Translations under genes and position numbers: made by a program | Assembly (NCBI GenBank): GCA_035651955.1 | Contig: DASRES010000015.1 | Span: 1-64,000 of the forward strand | Direction of reading: 5' to 3' | Source of the DNA: Acidimicrobiia bacterium | GTDB lineage: Bacteria > Actinomycetota > Acidimicrobiia > IMCC26256 > JAMXLJ01 | Length of the DNA: 64,000 bases | Part shown: piece after piece, positions 15,093 to 59,948 of the stretch | How the letters are laid out: each line of letters opens with the position of its first letter | How positions within the stretch are numbered: position 1 is the first letter of the stretch | The notes under the pieces: model-generated | The model's input: the letters and a program-made list of their open reading frames with translations, nothing else | Databases searched by the model: none | Told to the model about the DNA's origin: nothing

Positions 15093-15818
15093 ATGACCGC
15101 CACCGTCACCGACGTCCCGCAGCTCGCCGCCACGACCGCGCCGCTCGAGACCGTCGAGGTCGACCTCTACGGCAACATCCACAAGGCGATCCGGGGCGAG
15201 CTGTTCGCCGTCACGTACGCGGCGGGCAACGTCGACCCGTCCCACGACGCCGCCCTCGAGGCCGTGGTCGGGCGCTGGACCACGCTCGCCGGCCTACTGG
15301 TGTCGCACGCGGCCCACGAGGACACGTTTGTCGGACCGGTGCTCGAGCACGTCGACCGCGATCTCGTCACCGCGGTGACCGCGGCGCACGCGTCGATCGA
15401 CGCGATCATGGCCGAGGTGGGCGCGCTCGCCGACGACGCGCTCGGCGAGCGGCGCGAGGCGCGCCGGCTTCCCGTCCATCGCCTGCACCTGGCGCTCGCG
15501 TCGTTCACCGCGACGTACCTGCAGCACGAGGAGTTCGAGGAGCTCGTCGTGATGCCCGCGCTCGCCGCGCGGGTCACCGCCGACGAGCTGCGCTCGGTGC
15601 ACGAAGCGATCCTCGCGAGCATCCCACCGGACGAGATGGCGATGTCGCTGTCGATGATGCTGCCCGCGATCAACGTGGACGAGCGCGTCGAGGTGCTCGC
15701 CGGTGTCCGCGCGGGCGCGCCGGCAGAGGTCTTCACCGGCGTGCTCGGCCTGGCGCAGTCCGTCCTCACGCCGGACGCGTACGCGCAGGTCACGCGGAGG
15801 CTGAGCGCGCTCGGCTGA
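15093..15818 (+). CDS. Hemerythrin-domain protein
   Basis: Protein of 241 residues with a hemerythrin-like four-helix bundle. Candidate di-iron ligands are the His/Glu in IHKAIRGELF, HAAHEDTFVGPVLE, AHASIDAIM, HRLHLALASF and LQHEEFEELVVMPAL. These segments occur in the right order along the first 160 residues. The last 70 residues are helical without further ligands. ATG 15093 follows GGGGAGGAG. The probable function is oxygen or reactive nitrogen/oxygen sensing or storage. It stands alone; a long perfect hairpin 42 bp downstream may terminate its transcript. Confidence 0.8.
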   Translation: MTATVTDVPQLAATTAPLETVEVDLYGNIHKAIRGELFAVTYAAGNVDPSHDAALEAVVGRWTTLAGLLVSHAAHEDTFVGPVLEHVDRDLVTAVTAAHASIDAIMAEVGALADDALGERREARRLPVHRLHLALASFTATYLQHEEFEELVVMPALAARVTADELRSVHEAILASIPPDEMAMSLSMMLPAINVDERVEVLAGVRAGAPAEVFTGVLGLAQSVLTPDAYAQVTRRLSALG

Positions 15819-15860
15819 TGTCGCGGCAATCCGCGGATGCACCCGTGACGTAACCGTGGA

Positions 15861-15901
15861 TGCACGCACGGGAGCGACCCCCGTACGCTCCCGTGCGTGC
15901 A
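15861..15901. promoter_or_regulatory. 16-bp perfect hairpin overlapping the glycosidase start codon
   Basis: Left arm 15861-15876 (TGCACGCACGGGAGCG) pairs perfectly with 15886-15901 around a 9-nt loop. The right arm contains the GTG start codon (15897) of the secreted GH5 enzyme, so an RNA hairpin would bury the start. It also lies 42 bp after the hemerythrin stop and could act as a terminator, though no T-run follows. Confidence 0.55.
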
Positions 15902-17348
15902 CCCACCGCGTCATCCCTTCCCGGGTCGACGGCTCGTCGCCGTCGTGGTCGTCCTCCTCGCCGCCGTCGTCGGCGCCGCGTGCGTGCCCATCCGGCTCAG
16001 TGGAGGACCGCCGCCGGCTCGTGCGCGCGTCGGGCACGCCGGCCGCTGGCTCACGGACGCGCGCGGTCGCGTCCTGATGCTGCACGGCGTGAACCTCGTC
16101 GCGAAGACCGACGGCGTCACGCCCGCGGCGATGGGCTTCGGCTCCGACGACGCCGCCTGGCTCGCGCAGAACGGGTTCGACGTCGTCCGCCTCGGCCTCA
16201 CGGCAGCGTCCGTCATGCCGAGCCCGGGCGTGATCGACGAGGCGTACCTCGACTCGTTCTTCCGGACCGTCGACGAGCTGACCGCGCAGGGTGTCTACGT
16301 GCTCGTCGACCTGCACCAGGACGGCTGGGGTCCGACGCTGGGCAGCGACGGGTTCCCCGGCTGGATGACGATCACGAGCGGCGCGCCGAACACGGGCACG
16401 CCGTTCCCCCTGTACTACGTCACCAATCCCGCGATCCAGGCTGCGTTCGACAGCCTGTGGGCGAACGCGGCCGGTCCCGGCGGCGTGGGGTTGCAGGACC
16501 GTGTCGCGGCGATCTTCCGTGCGCTGGCCGCCCGCGTCCGGACGCGTCCGATGGTGCTCGGCTACGACCTGCTGAACGAGCCGTGGCCGGGCACCGTGTG
16601 GCAACCGTGCATCGCACCGCCGTCCGGTTGCCCCGCCCAGGACGCGAAGCTCGACGGGTACTACGCGCGCGTGACGGGCGCGATCCGTGCCGTCGACGCG
16701 TCGCACCTCGTGTTCGGCGAGCCGTACGTGCTGTTCAACTTCGGCGACGCGGGCACGAACATCGCGCGGCCGGGTGGCAGCCCCGCGAGCGGCCTCAGCT
16801 ACCACCTCTACGCGACAAACGTCGCGAACGAGCCCGCGGTCCAGTCGTTCGCGCTGCAGTGGTCGGCGCGCACCGGCGGTGCCGTCCTGAACACCGAGTT
16901 CGGCGCGACGACCGACACTGCCGCGATCGACCGTCAGGTCGCGGAGCTCGACGGCGCGCTCGTGCCCTGGATCTGGTGGGCGTACAACGAGGAGATCGTG
17001 CGCGATCTCTCGAAGCCGCCGACCGAGGCGAACCTGGTGACGAACGTCGTCGACGCACTGGTCCGTCCCCACCCGACCGCGGTCGCGGGGACCCCGGAAG
17101 CGCTCGCGTACGACCCTACGACGCGGACGATGCGCTTCACGTACTCGACCACGCGTGTCCCCGGCGTGGACGTACCGCCCGGCCTCCCCGGCATCACCGA
17201 CCTCGACGCGCCCGCCCGGACGTACCCGACGGGCTACCGCGTCACCGTGACCGGCGGGCTCGTGGTGTCCCGACCGGGCACGCCCGTCGTACGCGTCCTC
17301 AGCCTGCCCGGGGTCGCGGACGTCACCGTGACGATCCGACCCGCTTGA
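15897..17348 (+). CDS. Secreted GH5-family glycosidase (endoglycoceramidase/cellulase-like lipoprotein)
   Basis: Exported glycoside hydrolase of 483 residues. The N-terminus has a basic patch, a hydrophobic core and a lipobox ending at Cys29 (VVGAAC), so it is probably membrane-anchored. The (beta/alpha)8 domain shows GHAGRWLTDARGRVLMLHGVN, YVLVDLHQDGWGPT, the acid/base Glu228 in LLNEPWPG and the nucleophile Glu334 in LNTEFGA. These are GH5 clan-A features closest to endoglycoceramidase-type members. A C-terminal beta-sandwich of about 90 residues follows. GTG 15897 has no ribosome site and lies inside a perfect hairpin, so initiation may be regulated or leaderless. Confidence 0.82.
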   Translation: MHPPRHPFPGRRLVAVVVVLLAAVVGAACVPIRLSGGPPPARARVGHAGRWLTDARGRVLMLHGVNLVAKTDGVTPAAMGFGSDDAAWLAQNGFDVVRLGLTAASVMPSPGVIDEAYLDSFFRTVDELTAQGVYVLVDLHQDGWGPTLGSDGFPGWMTITSGAPNTGTPFPLYYVTNPAIQAAFDSLWANAAGPGGVGLQDRVAAIFRALAARVRTRPMVLGYDLLNEPWPGTVWQPCIAPPSGCPAQDAKLDGYYARVTGAIRAVDASHLVFGEPYVLFNFGDAGTNIARPGGSPASGLSYHLYATNVANEPAVQSFALQWSARTGGAVLNTEFGATTDTAAIDRQVAELDGALVPWIWWAYNEEIVRDLSKPPTEANLVTNVVDALVRPHPTAVAGTPEALAYDPTTRTMRFTYSTTRVPGVDVPPGLPGITDLDAPARTYPTGYRVTVTGGLVVSRPGTPVVRVLSLPGVADVTVTIRPA

Positions 17349-21059: not shown

Positions 21060-23717
21060 TCAAAGCTCCGCGCTGGGTGCTGCTTCGTCGAGGACGGCGA
21101 GGATCTCGTCGCCGTAGCGGTCGAGCTTGGTGGGCCCGATCCCGGTCACGGTGCGCAGCGCCGTCAGCGTCTTCGGGCGCTTCGCCGCGAGCGCGACGAG
21201 CGTGGCGTCGTGGAACACGACGAACGCGGGCACGCCGTCGCGCTTCGCGCGCTGGGTCCGCCAGTGCCGCAGCGCGACCTCCGCGGCGGTGGCCTCGGGG
21301 GAGTGGTCACGAGGGGGTGGCGGCGTTGCCGGCGTGGCGGTCACGCTCGTGCCGTCGCGGCGTCGTGACTGCGCGGGCTCGTCCGCATCGTGCGGCGCCG
21401 CGCCCGTGAACTCGTCGAGGAAGCGCGACGGGCGCGACGCGTCCGCGAGCACCACCGCGGCGTCACGCGCCCGCGTGATCGCCACGTGGAGCACGCGCCG
21501 CTCCTCCTCGACGTCCTCCGCGAGGCGGTGGGGGACGATCCCCGCGGTCACGCCGAAGACCGCGACGCGGTCCCACTCGCGTCCCTTGACGCGATGCACG
21601 CTCGACAGCGTCACGCCGTCCTCCGACGTCTCGCGGTGGAACACCGACCGGAGCCACGGCTCGAACGTCGCCGCGTCGGGATGGAGCGCGGCCACCTGCG
21701 CGAGCGCCTCGAGGTCGTCGAGGTGGCTGGATCCCTCGGCCGCGTTCGAGTCGAGGAGACTCATCGCGTCGCCGAGGCCGATCGTGTCACGCACGACCGA
21801 GAGTGCCTCGGCCGTCGACGCGACACCGACCGCGTCGGCGACGAGCGCAAGGTCGTCCGCGAGCGACTCGACCTTGCCCACGACCTTCGTGTCGTCGATC
21901 CTCGAGGCGATCGCGCGCACGCCGTCGACGCCCATGCCGTTGCGGAACCACTTCTCGATCCAGCGGGGAAGCCCACGCGACGGGCGGCGGTACACCTCGA
22001 CGAGGTCTGCCTTCGTGCACGAGCCGGGACGCGCGCCGATCCGGAGGTACGCGAGCGCGGCGCGCACGCCGGTGCGCTCGAGCACCTCGGGACCGAGGTT
22101 CGACCGGATGGGCACGCCGGCTTCGATGAGCGCGACGTGCGGCGCGAGGAGGAGCGAGTTCACGCGCGCGAGGACGGCGACGTCACGCGGGGAGGCGCGC
22201 CCGTCGTCGAGCCAGCCGCGCACGACGTCGACGACGGCCGACGCGCCGGCGTCGTGCTCGTGCACGCGCACCGTGAGCGCGTCGTCGCGTGCGACCGCGC
22301 CGGGACCGGGGCGCAACACCTTCGGCACGCGACGCCGGTTGTACGACAGGAGATGGCGGGCCGCGTCGACGACGGCGACGGGGCAGCGGTAGTTGACCTC
22401 GAGCGGGTGGTCGCCGCCGCCGGGGAACAGATCCGAGAAGTTGACGAGGAACCGCGGGTCGGCGCCCGCGTGCCCGTAGATCACCTGGTCGTCGTCGCCG
22501 ACGCCGAAGACGTCGAGCCCCGGCGCCGCGAGCAGCCGGAGCATCAGCACGTGCGCGGGCGTCAGGTCCTGGAACTCGTCCACCAGCAGGTGCCGGCACG
22601 CGGCCTGCATCGCGCGGCGCAGCCGGCCGTCGTGGAGCAAGGCCTCGATCGCGCCGTACACCTGCTCGTCGAAGTCGACCGCGTCGCGGGCGCGCAAGGC
22701 AGCGCGGTACCCGTCGAACATCCCGGCGAGGCCCGGGACGTCGTCGCGCTCTGCCTCCACACGTGCCGGATCGCGCAGTGCGAGCCGGACCTCGGACAGG
22801 GCCTCCAGGTACGGCGCGATGCGATCGGTGTTGAGGCGCGGGACACCGGGCGGCGCGAGCCCGTCGACGATCGTGCGGACCTCGCGCTCGTCGAGGACAC
22901 GGGGCGTCGCGCCACGCGCGCGGGCGACGATCTCGTAGCCGAGCGAGTTCAGCGTGCGGGCGCGCGGCGAGAAGTCGCTGGTGCGCGACTCGAGCTCCCG
23001 CTGGGCCTGCTTGTTGTACGCGACCGCGAGGACCGTCTCGCGTTCGACGCCGCGGTCCACGACGAGATGGCGCAACCGTTCGGTGAGCACGCGCGTCTTG
23101 CCCGAGCCCGCGGGCGCGACGACGCGTGCCGGGCCCGCGCCGTGCTCGACTGCCGCGAGCTGGTCGGGTGCGAGCTCGGCGCTCGGCGCGCGCGGCGCGG
23201 GCACGGGCGTGAGCCGGCCGAGCTCGACCGTCTCGCGGTGGACGACCGCTTCGGCGATCCCGGGCTGCGGGCCGCGCGGCCCGCCGTCGATCCACGCGGG
23301 TTCGCCCGACGGGAGCAGGACGTCGCCGGGTTGCGTGCCGTCGGACTCCGTCGCCCCGAGACGGGCCGCCTTCCGGGACCACCACCAGATCGGCGCGCCG
23401 GCGCGAGCGTCGTAGTTGTTGGCCCAGACGAGGAAGTGGAGCCGGTCGAGCCACGGTTCGAACTCGGGCTGGAGCGTCCACGGCTCGATCGACCACGAGC
23501 GCGGCTCGCGGAACCGGGCCGGATCGACCGCGAGCGCGACGACGACCGGCCGGCGCGCCGCCCACGCGTCGTGCAGCGCGCGCACGGCATCGCCCGGCGC
23601 GTCGAGCACCGCGTCGTCGATCGTGACGACGGGCGCGTCCTGCCACGGCCGCGGCGGCGGGTCGCCGACCCCGACGACCACGCCCCGGCCGAGCGCGCGC
23701 GGTCCCGGAGACGGCAT
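21060..23717 (-). CDS. UvrD/Rep-like superfamily 1 helicase with HRDC domain
   Basis: DNA helicase of 885 residues. Walker A is APAGSGKTRV at about residues 201-210, Walker B is LLVDEFQDLTP, and motifs FGVGDDDQVIYG, HPLEVNYRCP and VHRVKGREWDRVAVFG complete SF1A. The C-terminus carries an HRDC-type domain (TLTALRTVTGIGPTKLDRYG). Unusually, about 180 residues precede the helicase core; this N-terminal part (VVTIDDAVLD, LDRLHFLVWANNYDAR, WWWSRKAARLG) is Trp-rich and not recognised. ATG 23717 is the family-distal start. A palindromic repeat lies 43 bp upstream. Probable role: DNA repair or restart of replication. Confidence 0.88.
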   Translation of the reverse strand: MPSPGPRALGRGVVVGVGDPPPRPWQDAPVVTIDDAVLDAPGDAVRALHDAWAARRPVVVALAVDPARFREPRSWSIEPWTLQPEFEPWLDRLHFLVWANNYDARAGAPIWWWSRKAARLGATESDGTQPGDVLLPSGEPAWIDGGPRGPQPGIAEAVVHRETVELGRLTPVPAPRAPSAELAPDQLAAVEHGAGPARVVAPAGSGKTRVLTERLRHLVVDRGVERETVLAVAYNKQAQRELESRTSDFSPRARTLNSLGYEIVARARGATPRVLDEREVRTIVDGLAPPGVPRLNTDRIAPYLEALSEVRLALRDPARVEAERDDVPGLAGMFDGYRAALRARDAVDFDEQVYGAIEALLHDGRLRRAMQAACRHLLVDEFQDLTPAHVLMLRLLAAPGLDVFGVGDDDQVIYGHAGADPRFLVNFSDLFPGGGDHPLEVNYRCPVAVVDAARHLLSYNRRRVPKVLRPGPGAVARDDALTVRVHEHDAGASAVVDVVRGWLDDGRASPRDVAVLARVNSLLLAPHVALIEAGVPIRSNLGPEVLERTGVRAALAYLRIGARPGSCTKADLVEVYRRPSRGLPRWIEKWFRNGMGVDGVRAIASRIDDTKVVGKVESLADDLALVADAVGVASTAEALSVVRDTIGLGDAMSLLDSNAAEGSSHLDDLEALAQVAALHPDAATFEPWLRSVFHRETSEDGVTLSSVHRVKGREWDRVAVFGVTAGIVPHRLAEDVEEERRVLHVAITRARDAAVVLADASRPSRFLDEFTGAAPHDADEPAQSRRRDGTSVTATPATPPPPRDHSPEATAAEVALRHWRTQRAKRDGVPAFVVFHDATLVALAAKRPKTLTALRTVTGIGPTKLDRYGDEILAVLDEAAPSAEL

Positions 23718-23760: not shown

Positions 23761-23801
23761 ATGCGGCACTCACGTACGGAACCCGTACGTGAGTGCCGCA
23801 T
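23761..23801. repeat. Palindromic intergenic repeat, copy 1
   Basis: Perfect 19-bp inverted repeat (23761-23779 with 23783-23801) around a 3-nt loop. The outer core ATGCGGCACT is shared with four other copies in the window and is followed by TCTCGCG. It lies 47 bp after the 3' end of the AHSA1 gene and 43 bp before the helicase start, in the only sizeable gap of this stretch. The inner stem is CACGTACGG. Confidence 0.85.
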
Positions 23802-28520: not shown

Positions 28521-28561
28521 ATGCGGCACTCACGTACGCAATGCGTCTGTCAGTGCCGCGT
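28521..28561. repeat. Palindromic intergenic repeat, copy 2 (imperfect)
   Basis: Arms 28521-28539 and 28543-28561 around a 3-nt loop. The outer core ATGCGGCACT is intact on the left; the right arm carries several mismatches (CTGTCAGTGCCGCGT), so this copy appears partly decayed. It fills the gap between two convergent hydrolase genes, 10 bp and 11 bp from their stops, in the position of a bidirectional terminator. Confidence 0.75.
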
Positions 28562-33332: not shown

Positions 33333-34220
33333 CTACGGGCGCCCCTTGACGGCGGCGGTGAGTGCGTCGGTCGCCGCCTTCAGCGTCCGGCCCGTCTCGA
33401 GCAGCTCGCGGCCGTCGAGCTCGCGGGCGAAGCCGGTCAGCGACAGGAGGAGCGTCACCGTGCCGTCACGGTCGAACACGGGTGCGTTCACGGCGCTGAC
33501 CGCGTACCGGGCGGACGGGTCGACGTCGACCGGCAACACGTCGTCGCGCGTCGCGAGCTCACGCGACAGCACGTCGAGCAGGTCCGCGAGCGCGACGTGC
33601 TCGACCATCGCGCGCAGGCGCGCCTCCGGGACGGTCAACAGCTCGATCGCGTACCCGCGGGCACGCGTCGCGTCGAGCGCAGCGCGCGCGGTCGCACGGC
33701 CATCGCCCGATACTTGCGCGAGCCAGGCGTCGACGGTCTCGTCGCCTGCCCACGCGACGACCGCGGAGCCGAACGGCGGTCGCAACGGGAGCTGCGCGCC
33801 GACCCGCAGCGCACCGCCCGACGCGCGCATGTCGCGCACGCTGTCGACCACCGTGACCGCGTCACCCGCGACCGCGAGCGCCGCGCAGTGCGCGTGGGTC
33901 GCGACGCTCACGTCGACCATCGCCGCGTGCGCGATGTCGAGCGCGGGCAGCGACGACGCTGCGGCGCGGCCGACGGGCACGAGCGCGGGACCGAGGCGGT
34001 ACGTCTTGCGGAACGGGTCGCGCAGCAGCCAGCCCGCGCCGGCCAGCGCGGTGAGCATCGAGTGGCACGTCGACTTGTTGACCCCGAGACGGCGTGTGAC
34101 GTCGGCCAGCGTGAACGTCTCGGAGGGGTGCGAGGACAGCAGCTCCACGAGCGCGACGACACGGTCGGTCTGCGGAGACGGGCGGGCCACGCCCGCGAGG
34201 ATCGCGGATGCCGGTCGCAC
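33333..34220 (-). CDS. IclR family transcriptional regulator
   Basis: Regulator of 295 residues. The N-terminal winged helix includes RVVALVELLSSHPSETFTLA and RLGVNKSTCHSMLTALAGAG. The C-terminal GAF-like IclR effector domain runs from about residue 85 (ALDIAHAAMVDVSVATHAHC, LPLRPPFGSAVVAW). GTG 34220 is followed upstream by repeated ATTGC elements (ATTGCAACCATTGC, 34221-34234), a candidate binding site overlapping the start. It is divergent from the amidohydrolase-SnoaL-Rieske operon, which it probably controls. The gap between them holds palindromic repeat copy 3. Confidence 0.85.
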   Translation of the reverse strand: MRPASAILAGVARPSPQTDRVVALVELLSSHPSETFTLADVTRRLGVNKSTCHSMLTALAGAGWLLRDPFRKTYRLGPALVPVGRAAASSLPALDIAHAAMVDVSVATHAHCAALAVAGDAVTVVDSVRDMRASGGALRVGAQLPLRPPFGSAVVAWAGDETVDAWLAQVSGDGRATARAALDATRARGYAIELLTVPEARLRAMVEHVALADLLDVLSRELATRDDVLPVDVDPSARYAVSAVNAPVFDRDGTVTLLLSLTGFARELDGRELLETGRTLKAATDALTAAVKGRP

Positions 34221-34272
34221 ATTGCAACCATTGCGGCGCGCATCGCGTCCATGCGAGACTGCGGCGACAGAG

Positions 34273-34313
34273 ATGCGGCACTGACCGTCGCTTTCCGACG
34301 GTCAGTGCCGCAT
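34273..34313. repeat. Palindromic intergenic repeat, copy 3 (inner stem changed, still paired)
   Basis: Perfect 18-bp arms (34273-34290 and 34296-34313) around a 5-nt loop CTTTC. The outer part ATGCGGCACTGAC matches the family, but the inner stem reads CGTCG/CGACG instead of GTACGG, with both arms changed together. Unlike other copies it lies between divergent genes, 25 bp before the ATG of the amidohydrolase operon and so within its probable leader. Confidence 0.85.
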
Positions 34314-34338
34314 GTCGCCCATCCCGGAGGTCGATCCC

Positions 34339-36060
34339 ATGCACGACCTGGTCATCCGTGCCGGCACGCTCGTCGACGGGAGTGGCGAACCGCCGCGCAC
34401 CGCGGACGTGGCCGTCGACGACGGCGTCGTCACCGAGGTCGGCACGCTGGAGGACTCGTCGGCGCGCCGGACGATCGACGCCGACGGTCTCCTCGTGACG
34501 CCGGGCTTCGTCGACATCCACACGCACTACGACGGCCAGGTCACCTGGGACCCGCTGCTGTCGCCGTCGTGCTGGCACGGCGTCACGAGCGTCGTCATGG
34601 GCAACTGCGGGGTCGGCTTCGCGCCCGTGAGGCCCGGCACCGAGGACTGGCTGATCCAGTTGATGGAGGGCGTCGAGGACATCCCCGGCACCGCGCTCGC
34701 CGAGGGCATCACGTGGGGCTGGGAGAGCTTCCCCGAGTACCTCGACGCGCTCGACCGCATGCCGCGCGCGGTCGACGTCGGCACGCAGGTCCCGCACGGC
34801 GCGGTGCGCGCGTACGTGATGGGCGAGCGCGGCGCGCGCAACGAGCCCGCGACGCCCGAGGACATCGCGCAGATGGCCGCGATCGTGAAGGAGGGCATCG
34901 CGGCCGGCGCGCTCGGCTTCTCGACGTCGCGCACGATCATGCACCGTGCCGTCGACGGCGAGCCCGTCCCCGGCACGTTCGCCGCGGAGGACGAGCTGTT
35001 CGGCATCGGGCGGGCGCTCGGTGAGCTGGGTCGCGGCGTGTTCGAGCTCGCGCCCGCGGGTGTCATGGGCGAGGACCTGCTCGCACCCGAGCGCGAGGTC
35101 GAGTGGATGCGCCGGCTGTCGACCGCGATCCGCCGTCCCGTCAGCTTCATCCTCGAGCAGCACAACCTCGCGCCCGATCAGTGGCGCGAGCTGTTGAAGC
35201 GCGCCGAGGACGCCAACGCGGAGGGCGCCGATCTCCGGCCGCAGGTCGCCGGCCGCCCGCTCAACATGCTCGTCGGGTTCCAGACCTTCCACCCGCTGCG
35301 GTCGCGCCCGACGTACAAGAAGCTCGAGCGTCTGCCGTTCCGCGAGCGCATCGCGGAGCTCCGCAAGCCCGAGGTGCGCGCCGCGATCCTGTCCGAGCAG
35401 CCCGAAGGCGAGGACCCGCTCCTGCAGTACGTGAACGCGAGCCTCGACCGCATCTTCCCGATGGGTGAGCCGCCGAACTACGAGCCCGACCCCGCGACGA
35501 GCATCGCCGCGATCGCGCGGCGCGAGGGCCGTTCGGAGGACGAGGTCCTCTACGACGTGATGCTCCGTCACGACGGGCGCGAGCTGCTGATGTTCGCGTT
35601 GCTCGGCTACAGCTACGGCAACCTCGACGACCTGCGCGAGATGCTCGTGCACCCGATGGCCGCGCTCGGCCTCTCGGACGGCGGCGCGCACTGCGGGGTG
35701 ATCTGCGACGCGAGCATGCCGACGTTCATGCTGAGTCACTGGGCCCGGGACCGCGACCGCGGCGAGAAGATCCCGCTCGAGAGCGTGGTGCGCAAGATCA
35801 CGCGCGACACCGCGCGCCTCTACGGCATGGCCGACCGGGGGCTCGTGTCGCCCGGCTACAAGGGTGACCTCAACGTGATCGACTTCGAGAACCTCAACCT
35901 GCAGCTCCCCGAGATGGTGTTCGACCTCCCGGGTGGCGCGCGTCGGCTGGTGCAGCGCGCCGACGGCTACGTCGCGACGGTCGTGTCGGGCGAGGTGACG
36001 ATCGAGCGCGGCGAGGACACCGGCGCGCGTCCCGGCCGTCTGGTGCGCGGGGCAGCGTGA
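34339..36060 (+). CDS. D-aminoacylase / N-acyl-D-amino-acid deacylase-like amidohydrolase
   Basis: Amidohydrolase of 573 residues. DLVIRAGTLVDGSGEPPRTA is the N-terminal sandwich; the metal site is GFVDIHTHYDGQ at about residue 56 onward. GNCGVGFAP carries the Cys typical of the D-aminoacylase bridging-ligand position. Later segments are EQHNL and LSDGGAHCGVICD with the catalytic Asp (about residue 447). ATG 34339 follows CGGAGG. The stop overlaps the SnoaL gene start as GTGA. It opens a four-gene operon with a Rieske oxygenase and a nitrobindin-like protein. The exact amide or ester substrate is unknown. Confidence 0.88.
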   Translation: MHDLVIRAGTLVDGSGEPPRTADVAVDDGVVTEVGTLEDSSARRTIDADGLLVTPGFVDIHTHYDGQVTWDPLLSPSCWHGVTSVVMGNCGVGFAPVRPGTEDWLIQLMEGVEDIPGTALAEGITWGWESFPEYLDALDRMPRAVDVGTQVPHGAVRAYVMGERGARNEPATPEDIAQMAAIVKEGIAAGALGFSTSRTIMHRAVDGEPVPGTFAAEDELFGIGRALGELGRGVFELAPAGVMGEDLLAPEREVEWMRRLSTAIRRPVSFILEQHNLAPDQWRELLKRAEDANAEGADLRPQVAGRPLNMLVGFQTFHPLRSRPTYKKLERLPFRERIAELRKPEVRAAILSEQPEGEDPLLQYVNASLDRIFPMGEPPNYEPDPATSIAAIARREGRSEDEVLYDVMLRHDGRELLMFALLGYSYGNLDDLREMLVHPMAALGLSDGGAHCGVICDASMPTFMLSHWARDRDRGEKIPLESVVRKITRDTARLYGMADRGLVSPGYKGDLNVIDFENLNLQLPEMVFDLPGGARRLVQRADGYVATVVSGEVTIERGEDTGARPGRLVRGAA

Positions 36061-43155: not shown

Positions 43156-43199
43156 GTTGGTACACAAGTCGCGCCTATGACCGCGACTTGTGTACCAAC
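43156..43199. repeat. 18-bp perfect hairpin before the SDR ribosome site
   Basis: Arms 43156-43173 and 43182-43199 pair perfectly around an 8-nt loop CCTATGAC. The core TTGGTACACAAGTCGCG is unlike the ATGCGGCACT repeat family. It lies 21 bp after the hydrolase stop and 15 bp before the SDR GTG, directly next to the GAGGGAGG ribosome site. It may terminate the first operon or control SDR translation. Confidence 0.75.
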
Positions 43200-50507: not shown

Positions 50508-50556
50508 CGAGATGCGGCACTGACGTACGGATTCCGTACGTCAGTGCCGCATCTCG
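50508..50556. repeat. Palindromic intergenic repeat, copy 4 (longest)
   Basis: Perfect 23-bp arms (50508-50530 and 50534-50556) around an ATT loop, the longest and best-preserved copy. The ATGCGGCACT core, GACGTACGG inner stem and TCTCGCG end are present. It begins 7 bp after the stop of the solute-binding protein and 42 bp before the next gene, in the position of a terminator. Confidence 0.85.
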
Positions 50557-50598: not shown

Positions 50599-51474
50599 AT
50601 GCGGTTCGCGTACGCCGAGTCGATGACCGACCCGTCCTTCTACGTCCCGCTCGCGCAGGCCGCCGAGGACGCGGGGTACGACACGTTCGTCGTCCCCGAC
50701 AGCATCTGCTACCCGGCCGAGGCGGACTCGCGGTACCCGTACAACGCGGACGGCACGCGCGAGTTCCTCGACGACAAGCCGTTCCTCGAGCCGTTCGCGA
50801 TGATCCCCGCGCTCGGTGCGGTGACGACGACGCTGCGCTTCGCGACGTTCGTCGTCAAGCTGCCCATCCGGCATCCGGTGCTCGTCGCGAAGCAGGCGAC
50901 GACCGTGGCCGTGATGACCGGCAACCGGTTCGACTTCGGCGTCGGCACGAGCCCGTGGGCGGAGGACTACGCGGTGTGCGACGTGCCGTGGGAGGGCCGC
51001 GGCAAGCGCATGGACGAGTCGATGGAGATCATCCGCGGGCTCGCCGCGGGCGGGTTCTTCGAGTACCACGGCGACGTGTACGACATCCCCCGCATCAAGC
51101 TCTGTCCGACGCCGACCGAACCCCTCCCGCTGCTCGTCGGCGGTCACGGCGACGCGGCGCTGAAGCGCGCGGCTCGTCTCGGCGACGGGTGGATGTTCGC
51201 CGGCGGCGCGACCGACGACCTCGCGCGCATGCTCGAACGCCTCGACGCGCTCCGCGACGAGTACGGCCGAGCCGACGTCCCGTTCTCGGTGTACGCGGGG
51301 TCGATCGACGGGTTCTCGGTCGACGGCATCCGACGGCTCGAGGAGCTCGGTGTCACCGACGTCATCGTCGGCTTCCGCGACCCGTACGTCGCGGGGCCCG
51401 ACACGCAGACGCTCCAGGAGAAGCTCGACGCGCTGCGCTGGTACGCGGACGAGATCATCACGAAGACTCAGTAG
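50599..51474 (+). CDS. LLM-class F420-dependent oxidoreductase
   Basis: Luciferase-like oxidoreductase of 291 residues. MRFAYAESMTDPSFYVPLAQ, GYDTFVVPDSICYPAEADS, LRFATFVVKLPIRHPVLVAK, GNRFDFGVGTSPWAEDY and PLLVGGHGDAALKRAARLGD are standard family segments. ATG 50599 lies 42 bp after repeat copy 4. The next gene, a lipocalin-like protein, starts 12 bp after the stop with a strong AGGAGG site, so the two are probably one operon. Confidence 0.88.
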   Translation: MRFAYAESMTDPSFYVPLAQAAEDAGYDTFVVPDSICYPAEADSRYPYNADGTREFLDDKPFLEPFAMIPALGAVTTTLRFATFVVKLPIRHPVLVAKQATTVAVMTGNRFDFGVGTSPWAEDYAVCDVPWEGRGKRMDESMEIIRGLAAGGFFEYHGDVYDIPRIKLCPTPTEPLPLLVGGHGDAALKRAARLGDGWMFAGGATDDLARMLERLDALRDEYGRADVPFSVYAGSIDGFSVDGIRRLEELGVTDVIVGFRDPYVAGPDTQTLQEKLDALRWYADEIITKTQ

Positions 51475-59903: not shown

Positions 59904-59948
59904 AGATGCGGCACTGACGTACGGAAGGCGTACGTCAGTGCCGCATCT
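59904..59948. repeat. Palindromic intergenic repeat, copy 5
   Basis: Perfect 20-bp arms (59904-59923 and 59929-59948) around a 5-nt loop GAAGG. The ATGCGGCACT core and TCTCGCG end are present. It lies between convergent pirin and penicillin-acylase genes, 17 and 9 bp from their stops, as a bidirectional terminator would. Confidence 0.85.

Follow-up and report, generated by a model that had tools for sequence, protein, structure and literature searches.

A family of 37-nt palindromes near gene ends in an Acidimicrobiia genome, viewed from one copy that lies between divergent genes

A hairpin in front of an amidohydrolase gene

When a perfect hairpin stands a short distance before a start codon, is it there to serve that gene, or is it one member of a repeat that happens to lie there? 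The question arises at positions 34273-34313 of the window, the stretch of 64,000 nucleotides from an Acidimicrobiia bacterium analysed here. This interval is occupied exactly by the palindrome ATGCGGCACTGACCGTCG-ctttc-CGACGGTCAGTGCCGCAT, whose 18-bp arms pair perfectly around a loop of 5 nt. Its core, GCGGCACTGACCGTCG-CTTTC-CGACGGTCAGTGCCGC, was located from the sequence and by a genome pattern search at 34275-34311; like the other palindromes below, it is assigned to neither strand.

An earlier sequence-only reading had called this the third copy of a repeat, and had observed that both inner arms changed together while pairing was kept. This is correct; the inner triplet CGT replaces the common GTA/TAC type in both arms, and pairing is intact. 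Also correct was its placement of copy 3 between divergent genes. To the left, the minus strand encodes an IclR-family regulator (33333-34190). To the right, on the plus strand, lies an amidohydrolase gene (Amidohydro_3, 34339-36060) whose start is consistent with homologues aligning from residue 1. The best protein hits include Acidimicrobiia MAGs, which suggests that class as the source. The spacer from the end of the hairpin at 34313 to the ATG at 34339 is 25 nt.

Folded as RNA, copy 3 gives z = -6.64, and none of 200 shuffles was equally stable. The predicted plus-strand hairpin extends to 34263-34319 through an outer pairing of GGCGACA (34263-34269) with TGTCGCC (34313-34319). The probable ribosome-binding site recognised in the sequence, GGAGG at 34326-34330 on the plus strand, 8 nt before the ATG, lies outside this hairpin and is left free in the predicted fold. 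Further upstream, alignment with the congener G001 identifies a common block, CATTGCAACCATTGCG...CCATGCGA (34220-34256), that is a candidate operator or promoter region. If the promoter lies inside this block, the hairpin would be in the 5' leader of the amidohydrolase transcript. A search for a sigma-70 consensus found none, and terminator prediction made no call at copy 3.

A repeat family with one geometry

A genome-wide pattern search that permitted cores of 28-48 nt returned matches with 37-nt cores in every case. Exact-core copies number 41 in the 4.1-Mb genome, against 0 for a control pattern. The family core is thus 37 nt long, GCGGCACT-N21-AGTGCCGC, with about 45 copies genome-wide; the set used for comparison holds 45, degenerate copies included. 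By alignment, the full repeat unit is about 49 nt, with the consensus GAAGATGCGGCACTSACGTACGS-ATT-SCGTACGTSAGTGCCGCATCTTC. The hairpin arms range from 17 to 24 bp across the family, and the stems are very stable (median -39.6 kcal/mol).

The 13-mer half-site matches 69 times in the genome, always at palindromes and never alone. The outer 8-11 bp are strongly conserved, with half-sites nearly invariant, while the inner bases vary. This combination is unlike the neutral decay of a mobile element and implies that the ends are recognised by something. The wider family looks to be undescribed; Rfam gave no match anywhere in the 64-kb window, and no description of such a palindrome family in Acidimicrobiia was found in the literature.

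Several other features of these and further palindromes may be recorded here. One outer G/C pair (GAT...ATC versus CAT or ATG, alignment columns 6 and 48) differs from the inner pairs in that its mismatches, seen in 14 of 44 copies, are never compensated. Two tandem copies of the family, 56 nt apart with the common left flank CCCCGAAGAT, have poorly paired inner stems (L137:3001-3093). The genome also holds another subfamily, GCGTCGCT-N21-AGCGACGC, whose inner arms likewise pair poorly (C1 43380, 79343 and 84501; L118:360).

A second palindrome family of fixed length, 44 nt, has the form GTTGGTACACAAGTCGCG-N8-CGCGACTTGTGTACCAAC; its 27 genomic copies include one at window positions 43156-43199, and it too is found near gene ends. 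G001 holds six copies of a variant form, GTTGGGAC..., whose inner arms differ in sequence yet still pair for the most part; 10 further genomes of the order hold none. Finally, a strong palindrome, GTGGATGCACGCACGGGAGCG-N9-CGCTCCCGTGCGTGCACCCAC, lies at window positions 15856-15906, 37 nt past the stop of the gene at 15093-15818.

Where the copies lie

Placement was counted against genes called by a home-made codon-usage caller, and the counts rest on those calls. The 44 placed copies comprise 16 between convergent genes, 23 between tandem genes, 4 between divergent genes and 1 within a gene, so that 43 of 44 are intergenic. Among these 43, as many as 36 lie no more than 20 nt from a stop codon, where 8.0 would be expected, and 4 lie between divergent genes, where 19.2 would be expected. 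These expectations come from 20,000 random placements, all of which are exceeded by both deviations. Stop codon and 49-nt unit are a median of 5 nt apart, and in five copies the palindrome's own TGA serves as the stop of the upstream gene. At convergent pairs, one symmetric hairpin is common to both genes.

Counting copy 3, five copies lie in the window. The first, at 23761-23801, stands between two minus-strand genes, 49 nt past the stop of one and 81 nt before the start of the other (gene 21060-23681). The second, with its core at 28523-28559, is between convergent genes, 12 and 13 nt from their two stops, and has a mismatched inner stem. The fourth (50508-50556, arms of 23 bp) is between tandem genes; its core follows a stop by 13 nt and precedes the start of the gene at 50599 by 48 nt. 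The fifth (59904-59948) is again convergent, and the two stops stand 21 and 13 nt from its core. Elsewhere, one copy lies in frame within the gene for a DUF512/radical-SAM-like protein (L118:2995-3043), upstream of a Der-like GTPase, and adds to that protein about MRHSRTESVRECRM, approximately 14 residues.

The earlier reading had taken copy 3 to be alone in lying upstream of a ribosome site. It has company: the copies with cores at 50514 and 23763 precede starts by the distances just given, and three others (L138, L143 and L145) lie between divergent genes. The companion argument, that the hairpin must be more than a 3' terminator, is fair for copy 3, but the family is found overwhelmingly at the 3' ends of genes.

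Pairing between the arms

Do the arms change together more often than chance would have them do? Cells in which both sides are changed number 66, versus 35.0 in controls built from shuffles and slid alignments, and the covariation score is 0.172 versus 0.088. The inner triplets match between arms in 25 of 45 copies, against 12.8 expected from whole-triplet shuffling, and are mismatched in the other 20. Where neither arm carries GTA, 7 of 16 copies are matched (1.5 expected), the matched types being CGT, TGT, TCC and CAC. The compensated state is real, and the family keeps its self-complementarity, if loosely.

How loosely is best seen in the subgroup with TTT/AAA centres, to which copy 3 belongs. 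Here, 1 of 9 copies is matched (0.4 expected), and that one is copy 3; the other eight are mismatched. Inner pairing is therefore not required in this subgroup, and an inference drawn from copy 3 by itself fails. Nor do the mismatches favour G-U over A-C (8 versus 7 in tandem copies), and the covariation therefore does not single out self-pairing of RNA over that of DNA.

The arms of copy 3 have counterparts elsewhere. L130 carries its left arm and L129 its right arm, letter for letter, but joined in each case to another partner, a pattern that suggests an exchange of half-elements between copies. This recurrence also lends something to the idea that copy 3 owes its matched arms to copying from a CGT/ACG source, or to arm-to-arm correction of DNA, without selection for pairing. 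A genome search found no second copy with CGT in both arms to serve as such a source, and several matched types occur, with covariation across the order in quite different sequences. We regard this origin as unlikely, although arm-to-arm correction may have played a part.

Orthologous sites and the wider order

The amidohydrolase is 85% identical in protein sequence to its counterpart in G001, where the divergent arrangement with IclR is kept. There the block corresponding to 34220-34256 is conserved, and the stretch corresponding to the hairpin has diverged and folds no better than shuffles (z = -0.4). An apparent hairpin in that leader, ACCGCC-atatggc-GGCGGT, was weighed as the diverged counterpart of copy 3 and rejected, its z falling inside the spread of 119 divergent leaders. 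A hairpin of the copy 3 type was also absent from 31 more distant orthologous leaders. A conserved cis-regulatory leader was accordingly rejected, and the sequence-only reading's proposal that covariation be sought at orthologous sites met with leaders in which the hairpin is missing.

The same absence is found at other sites. No long palindrome was present at the ten G001 sites compared, at some of which synteny is one-sided, and the strict family pattern has 0 copies in G001, the single congener. At L116/L217, the convergent stops are 6 bp apart in G001, and in the genome studied here the palindrome stands between them as a cleanly delimited extra segment. Such empty sites, together with the in-frame DUF512 copy, favour gain by insertion rather than loss, a direction read from one congener, which might also have lost its copies.

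In other relatives, the strict pattern gives isolated matches at control level, with other lengths and inner sequences. A covariance model of the family, however, finds matches in other genomes of the order, and a looser pattern, GCGKCNCT-N21-AGNGMCGC, returns 8-17 copies in each of G018, G014, G001, G046 and G057, versus 0-3 for the reversed pattern. Because this pattern leaves the inner bases free, pairing there is not imposed by the search. Yet 6.5 of 9 inner bases are paired in matches from the order, versus 2.3 of 9 in matches from the other orders of the class, and the free sixth position is paired in 42 of 50 versus 11 of 25. The matches from the order differ strongly in sequence (GCGTCCCTGAAGCTCGC, GCGTCACTTACCCACG, GCGTCTCTCAACTACC and others). 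Pairing that persists across an order despite such differences is the best evidence that self-complementarity is either selected or remade by a copying mechanism.

In G018 and G041, most copies are no further than about 25 nt from a stop, and palindromes of the 37-nt geometry but different sequence are found near gene ends in both of these genomes and in G001. Related 37-nt palindromes with covarying arms thus occur across the order, and not clearly outside it. A broader proposal, for now tentative and rather doubtful, would see in GCGKCNCT-N21-AGNGMCGC an order-wide superfamily of rigid 37-nt palindromes, the ends of which are recognised by a non-RAYT enzyme or an RNA-binding factor. Each lineage would then amplify its own covarying version as a transferable, symmetric 3' hairpin for gene ends.

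What, then, became of selection on the hairpin, which had been deduced from the joint change in the arms of copy 3? It gains from covariation in the family and from pairing throughout the order. It is unsupported at this site, given the mismatches in the rest of the subgroup.

What the copies might do

The reading that we consider probable is that these palindromes form a REP-like family, that copies at gene ends function as hairpins there or are tolerated as such, and that copy 3 is a displaced member. Here, short and fully symmetric palindromes would have multiplied in the genome as insertions with recognised ends, and would have been retained mainly beside stop codons. We infer that gene-end copies are transcribed; if so, each would fold into a hairpin of 17-24 bp, most likely capping (and so stabilising) or ending the 3' end of the mRNA. 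Between convergent genes, the hairpin would serve 3' ends on both strands. Loose self-complementarity would let the inner stem change its sequence, usually while still pairing.

Could these simply be terminators? The stems are followed by no U-tract (at most 4 T per 8 nt in the 20 nt downstream, and a T fraction of 0.21 in the next 12 nt), and a GC-rich hairpin so placed is not a canonical intrinsic terminator. A variant of the idea asks for less: these would be primarily intrinsic terminators of the I-shaped, TRIT-like kind, which lack a U-tract, and selection for termination, rather than mobility, would hold them at the ends of genes. The closeness of stop codon to unit, the single symmetric hairpin per convergent pair, the great stability of the stems, and the presence in relatives of hairpins with this geometry at gene ends would all suit it. 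However, the orthologous G001 gene ends that were compared have no hairpin, one copy is intragenic, a T-rich tail is missing, and termination needs neither invariant sequence nor a length of exactly 37 nt. This makes the variant improbable.

Distinctly less probable is a duplex dyad site for a dimeric nucleoid or regulatory protein, in which the half-sites are what counts. Near-invariant outer half-sites at exact spacing, their confinement to palindromes, and mismatches without G-U bias are what such a site would show. Yet inner positions that a protein does not contact would not need to covary between arms, as they do, and promoter regions are strongly avoided.

It is very improbable indeed that copy 3 is a dedicated regulatory hairpin of the amidohydrolase leader, selected at this site; its distance from the ATG, the free ribosome site and its perfect pairing in an otherwise mismatched subgroup would fit, but the hairpin is missing from the G001 leader and the 31 others, and the same element stands at dozens of unrelated gene ends.

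Three other candidates were rejected. RAYT mobilisation fails for want of the enzyme: the Y1_Tnp domain (PF01797) had 0 matches in this genome (96% complete; controls positive) and none in 10 of the 11 relatives scanned, so that RAYT is present in G057 alone, 1 of 12 genomes. A DNA uptake sequence is contradicted by a half-site that never stands alone. An integron attC site, considered for the position after stops, was set aside, the copies being dispersed singletons.

As a member of the REP-like family, copy 3 is likeliest a displaced, tolerated copy, perhaps within a 5' leader, and would be one of about four that landed between divergent genes. Were it in the leader, it might at most stabilise the 5' end, attenuate transcription, or insulate the two promoters. 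No special role at its site is supported, and a leader function is unsupported. Its leader placement is a lineage-specific outlier, and the finding as first noted matters little.

Comparison with known systems

Neisseria and Haemophilus use inverted uptake signal sequences as terminators. The likeness to these lies in conserved half-sites arranged as inverted pairs at gene ends; the difference lies in the half-site, which in the present family never occurs singly. MITE or RPE-type insertions are similar in being non-autonomous, in leaving a clean empty site, and in supplying an in-frame intragenic copy. They differ in that no consistent target-site duplication was established for the present family and its parent transposon was not found.

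TRIT, from Gardner's RNIE paper of 2011, is reportedly a Rho-independent terminator motif of Mycobacterium tuberculosis. Its hairpin, conserved in sequence, recurs at numerous gene ends within a single actinobacterial lineage of high GC content. The present family resembles TRIT, by description rather than by sequence, in being a conserved gene-end hairpin; it differs in having many lineage variants with one fixed geometry. TRIT is named as a model in PMC3526491.

The closest comparison is with the REPs of the GTAG and CGTC superfamilies (Di Nocera et al. 2013; PMC3733652). These are found mostly in spacers between unidirectional or convergent genes, no more than 20 bp from stops, form lineage-specific subfamilies with complementary stem changes, and sometimes provide the stop codon; some are intragenic. 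The text of that paper does not mention Actinobacteria. Like REPs, the present elements are short dispersed palindromes, mainly intergenic, near the 3' ends of genes, able to supply stops, and in one case intragenic. Unlike REPs, they are fully symmetric, with long arms (17-24 bp) and an exact 37-nt core, and are mostly singletons. Their alignment has no unpaired GTAG/CGTC tag or tail, and the genome has no RAYT. The family would offer a testable case of how palindromes spread without the known transposase and of how transcripts end without U-tracts. If the preferred reading is true, a high-GC lineage has a REP-like gene-end hairpin of fixed geometry, and has it without RAYT.
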